Source of the DNA: an uncultured Synergistales bacterium
GTDB taxonomy: Bacteria > Synergistota > Synergistia > Synergistales > Aminobacteriaceae
Assembly (NCBI GenBank): GCA_905233455.1
Contig: CAJOES010000013.1
Location: forward strand, 1 to 33,821
Reading direction: 5' to 3'
DNA: 33,821 bases
The notes under the pieces are model-generated. The model was not told where the DNA came from. It did not search any database and was given only the letters and a program-made list of their open reading frames with translations. Below, piece by piece: positions 15,986-33,809 of this stretch; the first letter of the stretch is position 1, and each line of letters starts with the position of its first letter. A program made the translations under genes and the position numbers.

Positions 15986-17185
15986 TTGAATATAGCAGTA
16001 TTAGGAGGAGGGAATATCGGTACGCAGTTTGCATGTATTTCTGCCTCAAAAGGCCATGACGTGAACATATACACATCAAAGCCTGAACTATGGAGCAGTG
16101 AGCTTGAAGCGCACAATGATGACGGAAGCATAACACGCGGTCAAGTCTCTTTAATCTCTGATGATATATCGCAGGTTCTTGACGGCAGGAATATTATATT
16201 CATCACTTATCCTGCTTTCATGTTCCGTGAAATCTCTGAATTAATCCTTCCCCACATTCATGAAGGCATGTACATGGGCGTTATTCCAGGCACAGGCGGG
16301 GCGGAATATGCTTTCAGCGGGTGCATCAGGAGCGGTGCAGGGCTATTCGGGCTTCAGCGAGTACCTTCCGTTGCGAGAATCATAGAGTACGGCAGAAGCG
16401 TAAGAACTGAGGGCTACAGGAATATGCTTGAACTTGCCTCAATACCTCACAGCGAATCACCGAAACTTGCAGACTTCATATCAGAATTATTCGGTATACC
16501 CTGCGGAGTTCTGCCGAATTACCTGAACGTTACGCTTACACCGAGCAACCCTATCCTGCACACAACAAGACTGCGGACGCTTTTCCATGACTACGGCGAG
16601 TGGAAAATTTACCCGGAAAATCCATTATTCTATGGAGACTGGAGCAATGAATCATCTGAACTTCTCTTCAGGTGTGATGACGAACTGCAGAAGATATGTT
16701 CACTGCTTTACGGTTTGGACATGTCCGGCGTAAAGTCCCTGAAGATTCACTATGAGAGCAGTACACCCGAACAACTAACGCGCAAGATACGAAGCATAAA
16801 GAGCCTGAATAAATTACGTTCTCCCATGAAGGAACATGCAGGAGGATGGATTCCTGATTTCAGCTCAAGATACTTCACAGCAGATTTCCCGTTTGGACTG
16901 GCAATAATTGAGGATATTGCTGACCTACTTAACTTCAGGGCACAAAATATCACTGAAACCATGAAATGGTACAGAGATATTACCGGTGATACTTCACGAT
17001 TCAGTCTCAGCGATTACAATATCAAAAATATGCAGGATTTCTATAACATTTATCAGCAAAAAGGACTTGACAAAATGAAAAAAGCCACCATAATTGACAC
17101 GACACGACACGACACGACACGACACGACACGACACCTATTCTTGTTCTTGAAAGTCGGCTTTCATTACAGGGGGAAGCGGCATGA
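15986..17185 (+). CDS. Octopine/opine dehydrogenase-like protein, with repeat-encoded C-terminal tail
   Basis: 399 residues from a TTG start; AAAGAGGAA lies about 9 bases upstream and no ATG fits. The N-terminus IAVLGGGNIGTQFA (residues 3-16) is a Rossmann NAD(P)-binding motif. TLTPSNPILHTTRL (about 184-197) matches the opine dehydrogenase substrate domain, whose conserved histidine would be H192. Family enzymes reductively join an amino acid and a 2-oxo acid. The last 36 residues (from Met364) differ: they are encoded by a leader-like sequence plus the (GACAC)8 tract and read as two full DTTRH repeats and a partial third. The ancestral enzyme probably ended near residue 363. The stop overlaps the next start (ATGA). 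Loss or gain of one repeat unit would change only the tail and the coupling to the next gene, not the enzyme core. Confidence 0.75.
   Translation: MNIAVLGGGNIGTQFACISASKGHDVNIYTSKPELWSSELEAHNDDGSITRGQVSLISDDISQVLDGRNIIFITYPAFMFREISELILPHIHEGMYMGVIPGTGGAEYAFSGCIRSGAGLFGLQRVPSVARIIEYGRSVRTEGYRNMLELASIPHSESPKLADFISELFGIPCGVLPNYLNVTLTPSNPILHTTRLRTLFHDYGEWKIYPENPLFYGDWSNESSELLFRCDDELQKICSLLYGLDMSGVKSLKIHYESSTPEQLTRKIRSIKSLNKLRSPMKEHAGGWIPDFSSRYFTADFPFGLAIIEDIADLLNFRAQNITETMKWYRDITGDTSRFSLSDYNIKNMQDFYNIYQQKGLDKMKKATIIDTTRHDTTRHDTTPILVLESRLSLQGEAA
17061..17095 (+). promoter_or_regulatory. Repeat-leader module, copy 1 (RBS, start codon, conserved leader)
   Basis: The 35 bases immediately upstream of, and joined to, the GACAC tract carry AAGGA, an ATG at 17075 nine bases later, and the shared CATAATTGAC that runs into the repeats. 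Aligned with copy 2 (18181-18215) with no gaps, 28 of 35 positions match from GACTTGACAA onward. A TATAA-like element lies about 30 bases upstream, as in copy 2. The ATG opens a 36-codon frame identical to the tail of the dehydrogenase and ending on the ATGA of the next gene. Confidence 0.55.
17096..17135 (+). repeat. Pentanucleotide simple-sequence repeat (GACAC)8
   Basis: Eight perfect copies of GACAC. Because 5 is not a multiple of 3, slippage by one unit changes the reading frame. In the present frame translation ends exactly at the ATGA of the next gene. One alternative frame stops at TGA 17149-17151; the other runs past the next start, to about 17330. Confidence 0.95.
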
Positions 17186-18135
17186 AGATAATCACATTCA
17201 GCGACATTGCTTCCCTCAAGATAACCCCTTCAGAATGCAGCAAGTGGGCAGAAGAAGCCATTGCACACAAATCAAGAGCATTGTTGCCGCCAAAAATAAG
17301 CATGAAGCCTTCAGACGGAATATTCTGTAACGTTATGCCCGGCATAATTCCAGCAGATATTTCACCTTTAGGCCATTCAGTTGGCGGAGTCAAAGTAGTA
17401 ACCCGTTATCCGGACAGAAACCCATCACTGGACAGCAAAATATTGTTGTTCAATGCTGACACAGGAGAGAATCTAGCCTTAATGGACGGAAATTTTATTA
17501 CTGCCATGAGAACTGGAGTTGTTGCAGCACATTCCGTAAAACTGTTTGCTAAGAAAAATTATTCCGCTCTTGGGATAATGGGGCTTGGGAACACTGCAAG
17601 AGCCTTTATGCTGGTGCTTGCAGAAACGGACAAGCGCAATATCAGCGTGAAACTCCTGAAGCATAAGGGACAGGAAGAACTGTTTGCGCAGAGATTTTCG
17701 GGCTGTGAGCACCTGAGCTTTGAGTACGTTAATACGCCTGAAGATTTAGTGCAAGGCTCTGATGTTGTGGTGTCTGCCGTAACGTATGCTCCGGAAGATT
17801 TCTGCCGTGATGAATGCTTCGGTGAAGGTGTGCTGATAGTTCCGGTTCACACGCTGGGGTTCACGAACTGTGATCTGTTCTTCGACAAGGTATTTGCTGA
17901 CGACACAGGACACGTAAAACACTTCAGGAACTTCGGAAAATTCCGCTGTTTTGCTGAAGTCTGTGATGTCTTAAACGGTGAGGCCAGAGGACGGGAAAAC
18001 GACAGCGAGAGGATAATCGCCTACAATATAGGAATATCACTGCATGACATAAATTTTGCGGCCCATATACTAGAGAAAGCAAACAATGCCGTAAATGTTG
18101 ATATGCACGAACCTGTAATTAAATTCTGGCTGTAA
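17182..18135 (+). CDS. Ornithine cyclodeaminase / mu-crystallin family protein
   Basis: 317 residues. The family includes NAD(P)-dependent ornithine cyclodeaminases, alanine dehydrogenases and related imine reductases. SVGGVKVVTRYPDRNP (about 66-81) holds the conserved Lys71. ITAMRTGVVAA (about 106-116) is the family signature with Arg110, and LGIMGLGNTARAF (about 130-142) is the nucleotide-binding loop. The C-terminal IIAYNIGISLHDINFAAHI is also typical. Substrate unknown; pairing with an opine-dehydrogenase-like gene suggests a route that builds or interconverts an unusual amino acid. Its start overlaps the upstream stop and there is no strong separate ribosome binding site, so translation probably depends on ribosomes that have read the repeat tract. 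Confidence 0.8.
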   Translation: MKIITFSDIASLKITPSECSKWAEEAIAHKSRALLPPKISMKPSDGIFCNVMPGIIPADISPLGHSVGGVKVVTRYPDRNPSLDSKILLFNADTGENLALMDGNFITAMRTGVVAAHSVKLFAKKNYSALGIMGLGNTARAFMLVLAETDKRNISVKLLKHKGQEELFAQRFSGCEHLSFEYVNTPEDLVQGSDVVVSAVTYAPEDFCRDECFGEGVLIVPVHTLGFTNCDLFFDKVFADDTGHVKHFRNFGKFRCFAEVCDVLNGEARGRENDSERIIAYNIGISLHDINFAAHILEKANNAVNVDMHEPVIKFWL

Positions 18136-18152
18136 GATATTTTGATGATGCG

Positions 18153-18161
18153 TGTTATAAT
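18153..18161 (+). promoter_or_regulatory. Extended -10 promoter for the cytidylyltransferase gene
   Basis: TGT-TATAAT is a perfect extended -10, placed about 36 bases before the start codon. No strong -35 is visible. It would allow the phase-variable gene to be transcribed independently of the genes upstream. Confidence 0.55.
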
Positions 18162-18180
18162 TCATTATCTTACAAGAGAG

Positions 18181-18212
18181 GACTTGACAAAAGCAAAATG
18201 GCTGTCATAATT
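18181..18212 (+). promoter_or_regulatory. Repeat-leader module, copy 2
   Basis: Same layout as copy 1: AGAGAGGA, GACTTGACAAAA, a start codon, and CATAATTGAC leading into the tract. Here the start is the ATG at 18198, six bases further down than the copy 1 ATG; the position of the copy 1 ATG reads AGC. Both starts are in the same frame relative to the repeats. Confidence 0.55.
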
Positions 18213-19130
18213 GACCAGACCAGACCAGACCAGACCAGACCAGACCAGAATTATGCTCAAAATTACCCGCCATTAACACACAATCAATTCAATATTCTTG
18301 ATGCGCTGATTTCATCGGGATATGTTTCTGATGATTTAGCGAATACTCCAGATTTCAATACTCTCTGCAATGCTGGCTGTATATCCGAAGGCAGAATAAC
18401 ATCACGCGGCTATATGGCTCTTGAACCGTACAGGGTAAAACGTGCTGTGTTCATTGCGGCAGGTTTCGGCTCAAGGCTTGTGCCTGTAACGCTGAATACT
18501 CCGAAGCCCCTTGTGCGTGTTAAAGGCAAAAGGATTCTTGACGGGCTGCTTGATGCTGTTCTGTACGCAGGTATACATGAGATATATATAGTGCGCGGCT
18601 ATCTGTCCGAACAGTTTGACCAGCTTCTATACAAGTACCCTATGATAAAGTTCATAGAGAACCCTTCATACAATGAGGCAAATAATATCTCTTCAGCTAT
18701 GTGCGCAAGATACCTTCTGTGCAATGCGTATGTGCTTGAAGCAGATTTGTTGATTCACAATCCCGCCCTGATAAAGAGATACAACTACGCATCAAATTTT
18801 CTCGGAATAAAAAAAGAACGTTCTGATGATTGGTGCTTCAGCGCAAATGATGAGGGCATAATCACATCACAGACTGTAGGAGGACTGAACTGCTTTCAGG
18901 AAGTCGGCATATCCTATTGGAACGACGAGGACGGCAGAAAACTATCCGAACATATACGCCTTGCATGGGAGATGCCCGGAGGTAAAGAGCGTTATTGGGA
19001 TCAGATACCTTTCACAGTTTTTCCGAACGAATACAGAGTAGAAATCAGGGAATGCAGAGAAGAAGACATCATAGAGATTGACACATGGCGAGAACTTAAG
19101 GCCATTGACAAATCTTATGACGTAAATTAA
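18198..19130 (+). CDS. LicC-like CTP:phosphocholine cytidylyltransferase family, N-terminal repeat tract (phase ON)
   Basis: 310 residues. Residues 6-17 are repeat-encoded (DQTRP units). Residues 24-78 look like a winged helix (LTHNQFNILDAL, ITSRGYMALEPYRV). Residues 81-310 are a nucleotidyltransferase: VFIAAGFGSRLVPVT, NTPKPLVRVKGKRI, EIYIVRGYLSEQFDQL, NPSYNEANNISSA and a final ERYWDQIPF/EIDTWRELKAID region. These line up with pneumococcal LicC, which makes CDP-choline for decorating surface polymers. The true substrate here may be another phospho-alcohol or phospho-amine. The current seven GACCA copies keep the gene open; the two other frames stop within about 20 codons after the tract. An APC permease follows 14 bases downstream. 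No choline kinase (LicA) or LicD is in the window. Confidence 0.82.
   Translation: MAVIIDQTRPDQTRPDQNYAQNYPPLTHNQFNILDALISSGYVSDDLANTPDFNTLCNAGCISEGRITSRGYMALEPYRVKRAVFIAAGFGSRLVPVTLNTPKPLVRVKGKRILDGLLDAVLYAGIHEIYIVRGYLSEQFDQLLYKYPMIKFIENPSYNEANNISSAMCARYLLCNAYVLEADLLIHNPALIKRYNYASNFLGIKKERSDDWCFSANDEGIITSQTVGGLNCFQEVGISYWNDEDGRKLSEHIRLAWEMPGGKERYWDQIPFTVFPNEYRVEIRECREEDIIEIDTWRELKAIDKSYDVN
18213..18249 (+). repeat. Pentanucleotide simple-sequence repeat (GACCA)7
   Basis: Seven perfect copies of GACCA followed by GA, placed 15 bases after the start codon of the cytidylyltransferase gene. In the present frame it reads DQTRP and continues into the enzyme. The +1 and +2 frames meet stop codons soon after (TAA at 18274-18276 and TGA near 18299). 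It is the expected arrangement of a contingency locus. Confidence 0.95.
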
Positions 19131-30092: not shown

Positions 30093-33000
30093 ATGCGTAA
30101 AAGCTACAAGTTTTTCATGTTTCTTCTGTTGTTTGTAGCATTCATGTCTGTGTGGCATGAAACGGTTTTTGCTCAAGATTCCGGGCCTTCGTTCGGTATA
30201 AGGTATTCAAGGACTTTTGATGTCCGGCTTTACGGGCTTCAGAGGCCAAGATATTACTATGATACTGGCTATGATGGCTATTATCTTGGAGGCGATGAAG
30301 AGTACTTGGAAGATTATGCAGGTGTCATGGGCACTCTTCAGGTTGTTAGCGCGGACAGTGAGTATAAGGGAGTAACCAGACTGTTAAAATATTACAGGAA
30401 TTATTATATAAGCATGTATGGTGAAGGTGCCGTGCTTAACTGGTATTTCCCGGCTGCTCCTTCTCTCAACGGAAGCATTGTAGTTCCTTCCAGCAAGGAC
30501 ATCTATGCAAAGACTACCCCGAATTATGCGCCTTATGTAGGGTTTGTAAGCGACAACAGGGAAATCAACGGTATTGTATGGTATTTCGCCAGTGCTGATT
30601 TTTCCTCAAAATCTAGTACAGTTAAGGTAAATCCTGATGTTACCGTCAAACCTAATGTATCAGAAGTTAATATAAGCATTTATAAAAACGTATTATCAGG
30701 AGATCGTTTTGTTGACGAAGCAGTATTTGAGGAAACTCTTTCTAATGATGCTGATTTCAGCAATAGAAGGGTATCATTTGATGCTTTTGTTTCGAATGAT
30801 ATTTACATATATGTTACAGTCCAAAGCGGAGACGTTCACCTTAAATGGGATTTCTATTTTGATGGTGAAGAATATATAGGTCAGTCTGAAAGGGAAATAC
30901 CTGAACTTACTTCCGCAGACTTTACGACTCAGTTTATTCATGATGAAGCAGCATATATTTATAACTCTGGAATTCCCTACTATGATAGTTATGAAGATTC
31001 CAATAATAGCCTAACCGCAGTCTTATCCGGTAAAGTCAGCAATGACAAAGGGTATTGGAGATTTAACCACGAGTATCGTGCTGTTTTGATTTATAACGAT
31101 GTCGTCGATGACGAAGGCAGGCCTAGAGAGACTGTGATTGATACAAATTACCCGGATGAATATGGCAATATAACTTTCTCCACTGAATTCATAGCAAGAG
31201 AACGCAGAACAGTTGATTATGAAATCAGAGCTTACTCAAACTCAGATGAATACGAATTAAGTGGTACAGTTGTCAATAAAGGCACATTAGTAATTCCAGC
31301 TTCGTCTGATGTACGGAGCAGGGAAGATCAGCTGAGAAAATACTACTTCCCTTATATTGAGATCAGTAAGGATGCCGTAAATACTAAGAGCATAAAATGG
31401 GGACTGGTTAAGGCGATCAGCATAGATAACGAATACTACTGGTCCGGCTATGAAGTGTCTTATGATAACTCCGTTGCTGTTTCACCTTCGTCGATAAACG
31501 TATCAGGGCTCAAGCTGTCGTATAACATATATAATTATGGCTATATGCCTTATACTCCCTATACTACGTATTCTGCGGACTTTCCCGCTGACTCAACCAG
31601 TTTTGCGACGTACACTGTGAATCAGCCTAATGGTCAACTTAACTACTTATATGTTGATTTTATGGATACAGCTACAAACATAATCTACAGGTGGAATTTC
31701 AGCGTATATGCCGTAGCCGACTATACTAAAGCCCAAATGCCTGCCAAGACAGGAAATGCTCTGAAACCTCATTTCTATTTTGAAGGCAAAGTAAACCTAG
31801 TAAACGGCAGGCCGGACTACAGCAGAGCTGAAGGAACAGTAAACTTAGATTTTGTAGGTAAAGAATATGTTTCGGGTGATGAGTATATATACTCGAAATA
31901 TATTGGTAATCTTGTGAGCAGTCATGATATTCCGCTTATGCCGGTAGACGGAGAACAGGCTTCGGTTTATCATGAGACAAATGGAGATATTTTGACGTAC
32001 GACGGTCATTACGACGGACACGTGCATTATGAGTCTGAGTACAGCATAGAAGGCTTAACCAGTAAGGATACAATCTTCTGGGAATTCCCCTTGAGCTCTG
32101 ACCTGAACGGCAAAGCATCCGTGCCTAACTTCCGCACGTTAGATAAACAGCTTTCCACCTATGTCCCATATGTAGAGTTTAAGCACGAGGGAGTTAATGT
32201 TACCGGCATAAAGTGGGGGTTCGTCAAATCTGCGGATGAGAAGGCTACAGTAGTATATCCGTCTGGCGTAGACGATATGCGTCTGTATGTAGATTACGTT
32301 ATTACAGTCATGAGTAAAGATTACACTTTCCATGAAGCCACCAAAACCTTATCGGTAGATTTCAAGCCTACAGCAGACAAATTTGCACCTGAAGATATAG
32401 ACTTCAAGAGATGGCCGGAACTTGCAATACGATCTGTGTATTTTGCGTTTGAGGCTAACGGCGTAGATTACGAGTGGGATTTCAATATTAATGGCAGCGA
32501 CTATAATATGCGCAGTGTAGTTAATTGGGGAGACCTTGACTCGTATCCTCCGTTAAAGCTCAAGATAGGTGAAACAAAGGCCGTAAAGCTCGTTTTCTCT
32601 GATGATATATATTACTACTACAGAGACAGCAAGTGGGACGATGCCTATCTTTCAATACACGATATTTCTATCATCAGTTCTGATGTAAGTTTGGATCTTG
32701 GTGAGCCTATCTCGCGTGAAGTTCAGGTCGGCAATTCAGAAACAGAAGAGGATAGTACCAAAGTTGAATACCATGACACTATTACGGGAATTACGGCTTC
32801 ATTCAAGGGGCTTAAATCCGGCAGGACATCGGTAATTCTGACTCTCCGCAGGATCATCAACTACACTAGAAGTGGAAGCAGTTATTACTACGAGAAATAC
32901 GTAACACTGCCGCGTGAAATCTGGGTACTGAATGCTGACGGTACAGATCCTGCAGATCCGAGCGCAATATCCAGCGCAAACGATAAGGACTATAACCCGT

Positions 33001-33809
33001 GGTACACAACGTTCGTATTTCCTAAACCAGAACCAGAACCAGAGCCCGAGCCAGAACCAGAGCCAGAACCAGAGGATAATAATTCTGCGAACAACACACC
33101 CGGCAACAACACAGGCAGTTTGCCCGGAGGAAGTACAGGCACAGTAATACCGGGCGGGCTTTCTGTAACTGCAAAGATAGTAACTCCTTCCGCGGCTTCT
33201 GCAGCTGTTGTGGAAAGCTTCAGGCAAATACTTGAGAATATCGGCGATAATACACCGGTTGTTCCGGTAGCTTCCAGCAGCTTTGATGTAGAAAATGCAC
33301 CTAAGGTTGAAGAGGTTTTCTCTGCAGTCAGCAATGATCTTATGAATGCTGACACTCCTCAGATACTTGCAGCGGTTATTCCGACTATTACTGCAAACAC
33401 TACAGGTTTCTATATCTTTAAGTTAGATTTGAGCCATATACCGTCAAATCAGCGCATTTTCTGGTATCCGGACTATAAGAAGCTTGGTGTTGCGGCGGCA
33501 GACGATCTCAGCCCCAAAGCAGAGGTAGGCTACAATGAGTTCATGGACAAGAACGGAAATAAGGCTACTACTGCAGGTGACGGAGATATTAGTGTTGTAA
33601 CGTATCTTGCTGAAGGGACAACATATAATCCTATAGTAGCGGCGGAAGCTACACCTGAGGACGTAAGCACTATAAATAGCGGCACTTCAGGTAACGACGG
33701 CAGCGGTCCCGGAGGCGGTGGAAGCAGCGGCGGCTGTGATGCAGGCTTCTCCGTTGCAGGGCTCCTGATGCTTGCAGGAATTATGATGCTCAAGAAGAAC
33801 AACGCATAA
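30093..33809 (+). CDS. Large surface protein with Synergist-CTERM sorting signal
   Basis: 1238 residues. A signal peptide (KFFMFLLLFVAFMSVWHETVFA) starts the protein. The bulk is Tyr- and Asp-rich beta-like sequence with three diverged modules of about 270 residues. Each holds a (P)YxxFxxxxxxIxxIxW-(G/Y)(F/L)V/A-like strand pair (GIVWYFASAD, SIKWGLVKAIS, GIKWGFVKSAD), and about 100 residues later a WDF-like strand (HLKWDFYFDG, IYRWNFSVYA, YEWDFNINGS). Residues 979-994 are eight Pro-Glu repeats, a probable wall- or envelope-spanning spacer. The C-terminus has a Gly/Ser run, GGCDAG, a hydrophobic helix (VAGLLMLAGIMML) and KKNN. This is the Synergist-CTERM layout, where the Cys region is presumed to be processed and anchored at the surface. 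AGGAGG lies 12 bases before the ATG. Function beyond surface display unknown; adhesin-like or S-layer-like roles fit. Confidence 0.8.
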   Translation: MRKSYKFFMFLLLFVAFMSVWHETVFAQDSGPSFGIRYSRTFDVRLYGLQRPRYYYDTGYDGYYLGGDEEYLEDYAGVMGTLQVVSADSEYKGVTRLLKYYRNYYISMYGEGAVLNWYFPAAPSLNGSIVVPSSKDIYAKTTPNYAPYVGFVSDNREINGIVWYFASADFSSKSSTVKVNPDVTVKPNVSEVNISIYKNVLSGDRFVDEAVFEETLSNDADFSNRRVSFDAFVSNDIYIYVTVQSGDVHLKWDFYFDGEEYIGQSEREIPELTSADFTTQFIHDEAAYIYNSGIPYYDSYEDSNNSLTAVLSGKVSNDKGYWRFNHEYRAVLIYNDVVDDEGRPRETVIDTNYPDEYGNITFSTEFIARERRTVDYEIRAYSNSDEYELSGTVVNKGTLVIPASSDVRSREDQLRKYYFPYIEISKDAVNTKSIKWGLVKAISIDNEYYWSGYEVSYDNSVAVSPSSINVSGLKLSYNIYNYGYMPYTPYTTYSADFPADSTSFATYTVNQPNGQLNYLYVDFMDTATNIIYRWNFSVYAVADYTKAQMPAKTGNALKPHFYFEGKVNLVNGRPDYSRAEGTVNLDFVGKEYVSGDEYIYSKYIGNLVSSHDIPLMPVDGEQASVYHETNGDILTYDGHYDGHVHYESEYSIEGLTSKDTIFWEFPLSSDLNGKASVPNFRTLDKQLSTYVPYVEFKHEGVNVTGIKWGFVKSADEKATVVYPSGVDDMRLYVDYVITVMSKDYTFHEATKTLSVDFKPTADKFAPEDIDFKRWPELAIRSVYFAFEANGVDYEWDFNINGSDYNMRSVVNWGDLDSYPPLKLKIGETKAVKLVFSDDIYYYYRDSKWDDAYLSIHDISIISSDVSLDLGEPISREVQVGNSETEEDSTKVEYHDTITGITASFKGLKSGRTSVILTLRRIINYTRSGSSYYYEKYVTLPREIWVLNADGTDPADPSAISSANDKDYNPWYTTFVFPKPEPEPEPEPEPEPEPEDNNSANNTPGNNTGSLPGGSTGTVIPGGLSVTAKIVTPSAASAAVVESFRQILENIGDNTPVVPVASSSFDVENAPKVEEVFSAVSNDLMNADTPQILAAVIPTITANTTGFYIFKLDLSHIPSNQRIFWYPDYKKLGVAAADDLSPKAEVGYNEFMDKNGNKATTAGDGDISVVTYLAEGTTYNPIVAAEATPEDVSTINSGTSGNDGSGPGGGGSSGGCDAGFSVAGLLMLAGIMMLKKNNA
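33027..33074 (+). repeat. In-frame hexanucleotide repeat encoding (Pro-Glu)8
   Basis: Eight degenerate CCAGAA/CCAGAG units. Changes in copy number would keep the frame, altering only spacer length. Confidence 0.9.

Follow-up and report, generated by a model that had tools for sequence, protein, structure and literature searches.

A common translation leader followed by 5- or 7-bp repeat tracts probably forms genus-wide slipped-strand contingency loci in rumen Synergistaceae

In an uncultured Synergistales bacterium, two sites 1.1 kb apart carry a similar short leader that runs straight into perfect tandem repeats of two different pentanucleotides. Are they two copies of one locally duplicated switch, or members of something wider? 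The window, meaning the whole 33,821-nucleotide stretch analysed (CAJOES010000013.1), is one entire contig (C13) of a 2.49-Mb, 166-contig genome. A first-pass annotation had described the sites as copies of a portable phase-variation leader in a duplicated contingency-locus cassette. On recount, the leaders (17064–17098 and 18181–18215) differ at 7 of 35 positions, which agrees with the 28/35 identity it had given. The other elements it named are likewise present: two perfect 5-bp tracts, measured as (GACAC)8 and (GACCA)7.4; a ribosome binding site before each leader, in the form of the Shine-Dalgarno (SD)-like AAAGGA and AGAGAGGA; a TATAA-like element upstream of each leader (TATAAC and TATAAT, 25–28 bases before TTGACA); and same-frame start codons (ATGs at 17075 and 18198, equal in frame relative to the tract). 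The elements of the two sites are the following, where the model is the leader model described below.

17042–17047, + strand: TATAAC, a possible but weak −10 element of a promoter upstream of site 1, overlapped by the 3′ end of the preceding open reading frame (ORF) and suggested by family-wide TATAAT enrichment
17058–17066, + strand: SD-like AAAAAGGAC of leader 1, part of a purine block conserved directly 5′ of TTGACA in 79 leaders
17067–17094, + strand: core of leader 1, with TTGACA 17067–17072, ATG start 17075–17077 and CATAAT 17089–17094 (model match 17058–17098, E 1.1e-10)
17096–17135, + strand: tract 1, (GACAC)8.0, 100% perfect
18156–18161, + strand: TATAAT, the probable −10 element of the site 2 promoter, suggested by the same family-wide enrichment
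18176–18182, + strand: SD-like GAGAGGA of leader 2, in the conserved purine block before TTGACA
18184–18211, + strand: core of leader 2, with TTGACA 18184–18189, ATG start 18198–18200 and CATAAT 18206–18211 (model match 18174–18215, E 7.5e-12)
18213–18249, + strand: tract 2, (GACCA)7.4, 100% perfect

We propose, with a probability of roughly 0.87, that these sites are slipped-strand contingency loci built on one common translation leader found throughout the genus. Each would be a translation-initiation cassette, comprising an SD, a start codon, a few codons and a tract of perfectly repeated 5- or 7-bp units. In a fusion type, the tract would lead into a gene without its own start; in a coupling type, a short tail would follow the tract and finish on the start codon of the next gene, which has an SD of its own. 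Slipped-strand mispairing would add or remove units and each unit would shift the frame, so that about one state in three would be ON. Slippage would presumably be frequent within a population and would switch surface glycans, and the leader may have spread by recombination of leader-gene blocks between loci and species. The sites display the marks of simple-sequence-repeat contingency loci: a perfect tract at the coding start whose unit is not a multiple of three (92 sites), a gene that moves in or out of frame in silico when the unit number changes (the pair L213 and L086), the same locus with differing unit numbers in related genomes (L213/L086, L081/L088 and L211/L075), and surface-modifying targets (74 proteins). 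The class of mechanism is known. What is new is one leader over non-homologous genes, the strict use of 5- and 7-bp units, and coupling gated by a tract.

The family was collected in several ways. A search for four GACNN units gave 11 tract sites in the genome of the window. A sequence-only leader model (R1), built from seven leaders, gave 16 leader-and-tract sites there, nine of them at E<2e-10, and a PF00535 search of the same genome added nothing. Across the genus, represented by metagenome-assembled genomes (MAGs) of rumen Synergistaceae such as Synergistaceae bacterium RGIG3234 from goat reticulum, the model matched 23 of 43 species at E≤1e-4. Altogether 92 distinct sites were read across the genus. 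In the rest of the order the model search found no true site, with 139 genomes lacking any match and one borderline match. The best match in another family (G126, E 9.5e-5) was rejected, being a tract-free ordinary gene start, apparently that of a prephenate dehydrogenase. TTGACA belonged to the filter by which sites were accepted, and its constancy was therefore checked from the tract side; a search assuming no leader found a TTGACA leader before 14 of 15 genus tracts of (ACTCAGG)≥3. Unrelated genes stand behind the sites and the family is dispersed genus-wide, which rules out local duplication of one cassette. The other half of the earlier description, that of a contingency locus, is borne out by the frame of the start codon, the stop-free units, the fused or coupled ORFs, the gene functions and the copy-number differences.

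Some relatives fall outside the regular pattern. Beyond the 16 sites, the genome of the window (G000) has variant leaders on contigs C35, C38 and C48, a site on C94 cut by the contig start, and a decayed site on C28/C80. On C35 (L042) and C38 (L043) the unit is GGTCT, the reverse complement of GACCA, behind a related leader; one of these two leaders has TTGACA-17-CATAAT, and each downstream gene has an SD and an ATG of its own, over 100 nt away. At the ends of C28 and C80 (L059, L060) the tract is decayed and the leader ATG frame continues straight into an N-terminus of membrane type (MAVYRVQQNFFSKIVIAILLAVSL), as if the switch were fixed in the ON state. A leader-like site in G025 (L152) has a 14-bp tandem unit (GGCTCAAGAACAGC), which is twice seven and the only length seen besides 5 or 7.

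The common order of elements is TATAAT, an AAAGGAG-like SD, TTGACAAAAT, ATG, CATAATT and the tract. TATAAT is perfect in 45 of 91 sites against 7.4 expected, mostly 29–36 nt before TTGACA, and the leader ATG lies at +8 or +14 from TTGACA, or one or two later. The unit is 5 bp long in 51 sites and 7 bp in 41. Multiples of three occur in none of the 92, and units of 4 or 8 bp are likewise absent among them, so every unit gained or lost shifts the frame. None of the 27 unit types contains a stop in any forward frame, compared with 7 of 27 in reverse (Fisher P=0.010; shuffles P=0.0076).

The anatomy also permits another view, in which the leader is mainly a promoter (TTGACA, 16–17 nt, a [CTA]A-rich −10) that starts transcription within the tract, whose length or unit acts on transcription or RNA stability rather than on the reading frame. 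TTGACA is indeed nearly invariant, in the tract-first set as well (14/15), and 80 of 92 sites have, 16 or 17 nt further on, a −10-like hexamer in which A2 and T6 are conserved. However, the spacing is 12–15 nt at some sites (the range of the others being 12–19), and the RNA would lack the start codon. The tract begins after both the start codon and the −10-like hexamer, so its length would not alter promoter spacing in the manner of the hmw promoters. An open ATG frame, stop-free units, units that are not multiples of three and coupling stops are all unpredicted by a promoter, and we regard this explanation as improbable.

The translational switch, in comparison, makes statements about reading frames that can be read directly. 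Of the 87 ATG-bearing leaders, 86 enter the tract with the ATG frame still open, although these are not independent tests because of their common ancestry; the remaining five leaders have TTG or GTG near the expected start place. Only one frame is open in 60 of 92 leaders, since CATAATTGAC closes the other two in most. Among 76 sites with enough downstream sequence, 59 are of the fusion type, with a long ORF open at the tract exit. In 22 of these 59 it is in frame with the leader ATG, which is consistent with one third (P=0.58); L058 is so only via a second ATG at the junction. Predicted domains start directly past the tract, as in the GT2 domain of L066 (residue 2), the acyltransferase of L054 (residue 1) and Stealth CR1 of L056 (residue 5). 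The 14 other sites are assigned to the coupling type: 10 of them have a frame, out of the three, whose end falls −6 to +8 nt from the start codon of the following gene (mean of 4.2 under the null, P=0.0002). One target among the 14 is unusual: at L104 (G024) the leader and a tract with an internal TAA stand 118 nt before a lepA-looking gene (EF-Tu-type GTPase).

The window holds one site of each type, with these genes:

15986–17185, + strand: octopine-dehydrogenase-like ORF, extending in frame across both leader 1 and tract 1, as also at locus L115 in genome G033
17075–17185, + strand: leader ORF 1, 36 aa, MKKATIIDTTRHDTTRHDTTPILVLESRLSLQGEAA, whose stop TGA (17183–17185) overlaps the ATG of the next gene (ATGA)
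17182–18135, + strand: gene of the OCD/mu-crystallin family, predicted to be switched by coupling to leader ORF 1; its orthologs in G033 and G062 lie behind GACAA or GACAA/TACAA tracts
18198–19130, + strand: 310-aa ORF, a predicted fusion of leader 2, the tract and a LicC-like nucleotidyltransferase whose native start is lost

Site 1, where no more than about 10 nt separate the upstream stop from the downstream start as in translational coupling, reads as a coupling site in the ON state by virtue of its ATGA overlap; that it is a coupling rather than a fusion site had escaped the first-pass annotation. Its tract may have a second output. The octopine-dehydrogenase-like ORF meets no stop ahead of leader 1, both here and in G033, and continues in frame through tract 1, so the tract length also sets the C-terminal tail of that protein. 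One tract could thus control both this tail and the coupling of the OCD-like gene. In G033 the locus is split over the ends of two contigs, one reading octopine dehydrogenase, leader and GACAA and the other GACAA and OCD gene; in G062 the OCD gene is preceded by a mixed GACAA/TACAA tract. Site 2 reads as a fusion site, also ON. The G062 ortholog of its nucleotidyltransferase (L193) carries a plain SD-ATG close to the corresponding position, without a tract, and the window gene runs for 54 codons without any other in-frame ATG; the ATG of leader 2 is therefore likely its sole start.

The same frames can be set against the possibility that the tract is neutral or serves just to encode a variable N-terminal tail (such as DTTRH or DQTRP), with the genes expressed from later starts regardless of frame. 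An in-frame ATG within 60 codons exists in 33 of the 59 fusion sites, and some tracts have decayed with the leader kept (L101, L150, L157). Yet multiples of three, which a varied tail would favour, are never seen; in 26 of the 59 no further in-frame ATG follows over 60 codons, and domains start at the tract; and coupling sites end on the next start codon. This makes frame-independent expression highly improbable as a general account.

If the tract is instead a translational switch, its unit number should differ between relatives. The loci compared here are from different species, not strains. L213 (G065) and L086 (G010) are the same locus, with 91% identity overall and near identity around the tract. 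L213 has (GTCAA)8 and a 47-aa leader ORF whose TGA overlaps the ATG of the next gene, which is the ON arrangement. L086 has four units, one mutated to TAA, and its leader ORF stops after 11 codons, which is OFF. In a context with 93% identity, L081 holds 15.6 units against 3.0 in L088. The unit itself also turns over. L211 and L075 have a common leader and near flanks, with GACTCAG ×2.9 in one and GATTCAG ×5.9 in the other, a difference that reads as a point change homogenised through all copies. One-step pairs among the unit types number 21, against 11 in composition-shuffled sets (0/500 shuffles). The earlier suggestion that the leader was kept and the tract changed agrees with this pair and with the window locus of octopine-dehydrogenase-like and OCD-like genes, which has GACAC here and GACAA in G033.

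Two further observations were set aside as evidence for variation. The twin contig ends L112 and L113 of G031 had been candidates for within-species variation and were rejected as an assembly duplication, being identical over at least 15 kb; these ends, the start of contig C2 and the end of C10, both stop in a CGAACCA tract. Breaks of contigs inside a tract (13 of 92 sites) were not used as proof of length mixtures, as repeats alone can break an assembly.

Homology between species breaks at the leader. The upstream gene and leader are common and the gene behind differs in L097/L123 and L106/L118; the leader and gene are common and the upstream region differs in L106/L114/L147 and L099/L141. 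Such breaks suggest that leader-gene blocks have been exchanged. The leader is thus portable in the sense that its combinations with a gene or with an upstream region have been reshuffled between species, and no mobile-element hallmark was seen. That leader and tract are a small mobile element, of the kind of a miniature inverted-repeat transposable element, which inserts before genes and switches them only by accident, can scarcely be right: the copies are dispersed by the dozen and the G062 ortholog of the window nucleotidyltransferase lacks a leader, yet similarity ends at the leader edges, the leader consensus RNA folds with four weak pairs at −0.79 kcal/mol and shows no inverted repeat or stable stem, the sites scored are always sense to a gene with the ATG frame preserved, and the exchange of leader-gene or upstream-leader blocks fits homologous recombination.

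The genes so placed have related functions. A Pfam tally of 74 downstream proteins gave 8 pyruvyl transferases, 7 acyltransferases, 5 GT2 and 5 GT61, as well as methyltransferases, Stealth, GT11, sugar transferases and LicD. The set belongs to surface glycans, in line with expectation for contingency genes.

Several facts weigh against slipped-strand switching from a translation leader. The ATG lies 15 nt from the SD in many leaders, which is a long spacing, and the embedded TTGACA-16/17-CATAAT is left unexplained by a translational switch. Four of the 14 coupling-type sites (L051, L071, L100, L104) have no frame that reaches the gene, and the 33 fusion genes with a later ATG might be expressed independently of frame. 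The unit-number differences are known between species, and slippage itself we infer from them. The constant core might be accounted for by an embedded promoter or by a shared control site acting at the RNA level. A bolder proposal, which we offer tentatively and hold to be rather unlikely, is that all contingency genes of the genus are governed together through the SD-TTGACA-ATG core, which would be a control site in its own right, either as an embedded promoter or as the target of a single small RNA or RNA-binding protein. The leader would in addition be the recombination joint at which one glycan gene replaces another behind the standard switch. If true, this would be a plug-in phase-variation platform in which random and coordinated control are combined.

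Known contingency loci resemble these sites in part. Neisseria opa genes have a CTCTT pentamer in the signal-peptide region, in many copies, with translational switching. The sites here are alike in having a pentamer tract just past the start codon of many copies; however, opa genes are paralogs, for which a shared 5′ end is expected, whereas the genes behind the present leader are unrelated. The polysaccharide promoters of Bacteroides fragilis, which are switched by site-specific inversion and defined by inverted repeats, similarly place one standard switch module ahead of many surface-polysaccharide loci; there a promoter inverts, whereas here a translated tract would slip.

In Haemophilus influenzae, contingency loci include the tetranucleotide lic, lgt and mod loci and hsdM with a GACGA pentamer, and pentamer and heptamer tracts are known singly (PMC2651432). 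As in the present sites, the units are not multiples of three, lie in the 5′ coding part and give ON in one frame of three, and the targets are comparable, being surface glycans together with restriction-modification genes (PMC2651432). The H. influenzae loci differ in being mostly tetranucleotides and in having no leader common to unrelated genes, unlike the one leader, the exclusive 5- and 7-bp units and the coupling mode found here. The heptamer tracts of hmw1A and hmw2A are also near the gene start (PMC2651432), but lie in the promoter and grade transcription, whereas those here follow the start codon and are stop-free. A large frameshift survey kept translational coupling and repeat phase variation as separate classes (PMC3711429). 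A literature search of partial coverage did not turn up any description of repeat-mediated phase variation in Synergistota.

An uncultured rumen lineage thus appears to carry up to about 20 glycan switches per genome, made from one standard part. The leader motif allows contingency genes to be listed from sequence alone, tract-gated translational coupling would be a second output mode that ordinary annotation misses, and orthologous loci display repeat-unit turnover by point change plus homogenisation.

The window contains one more tandem array, the hexamer (AACCAG)8 at 33025–33073, in the 3′ part of a 1238-aa ORF (30093–33809). Being in frame, it is a length-variable protein repeat rather than a switch.

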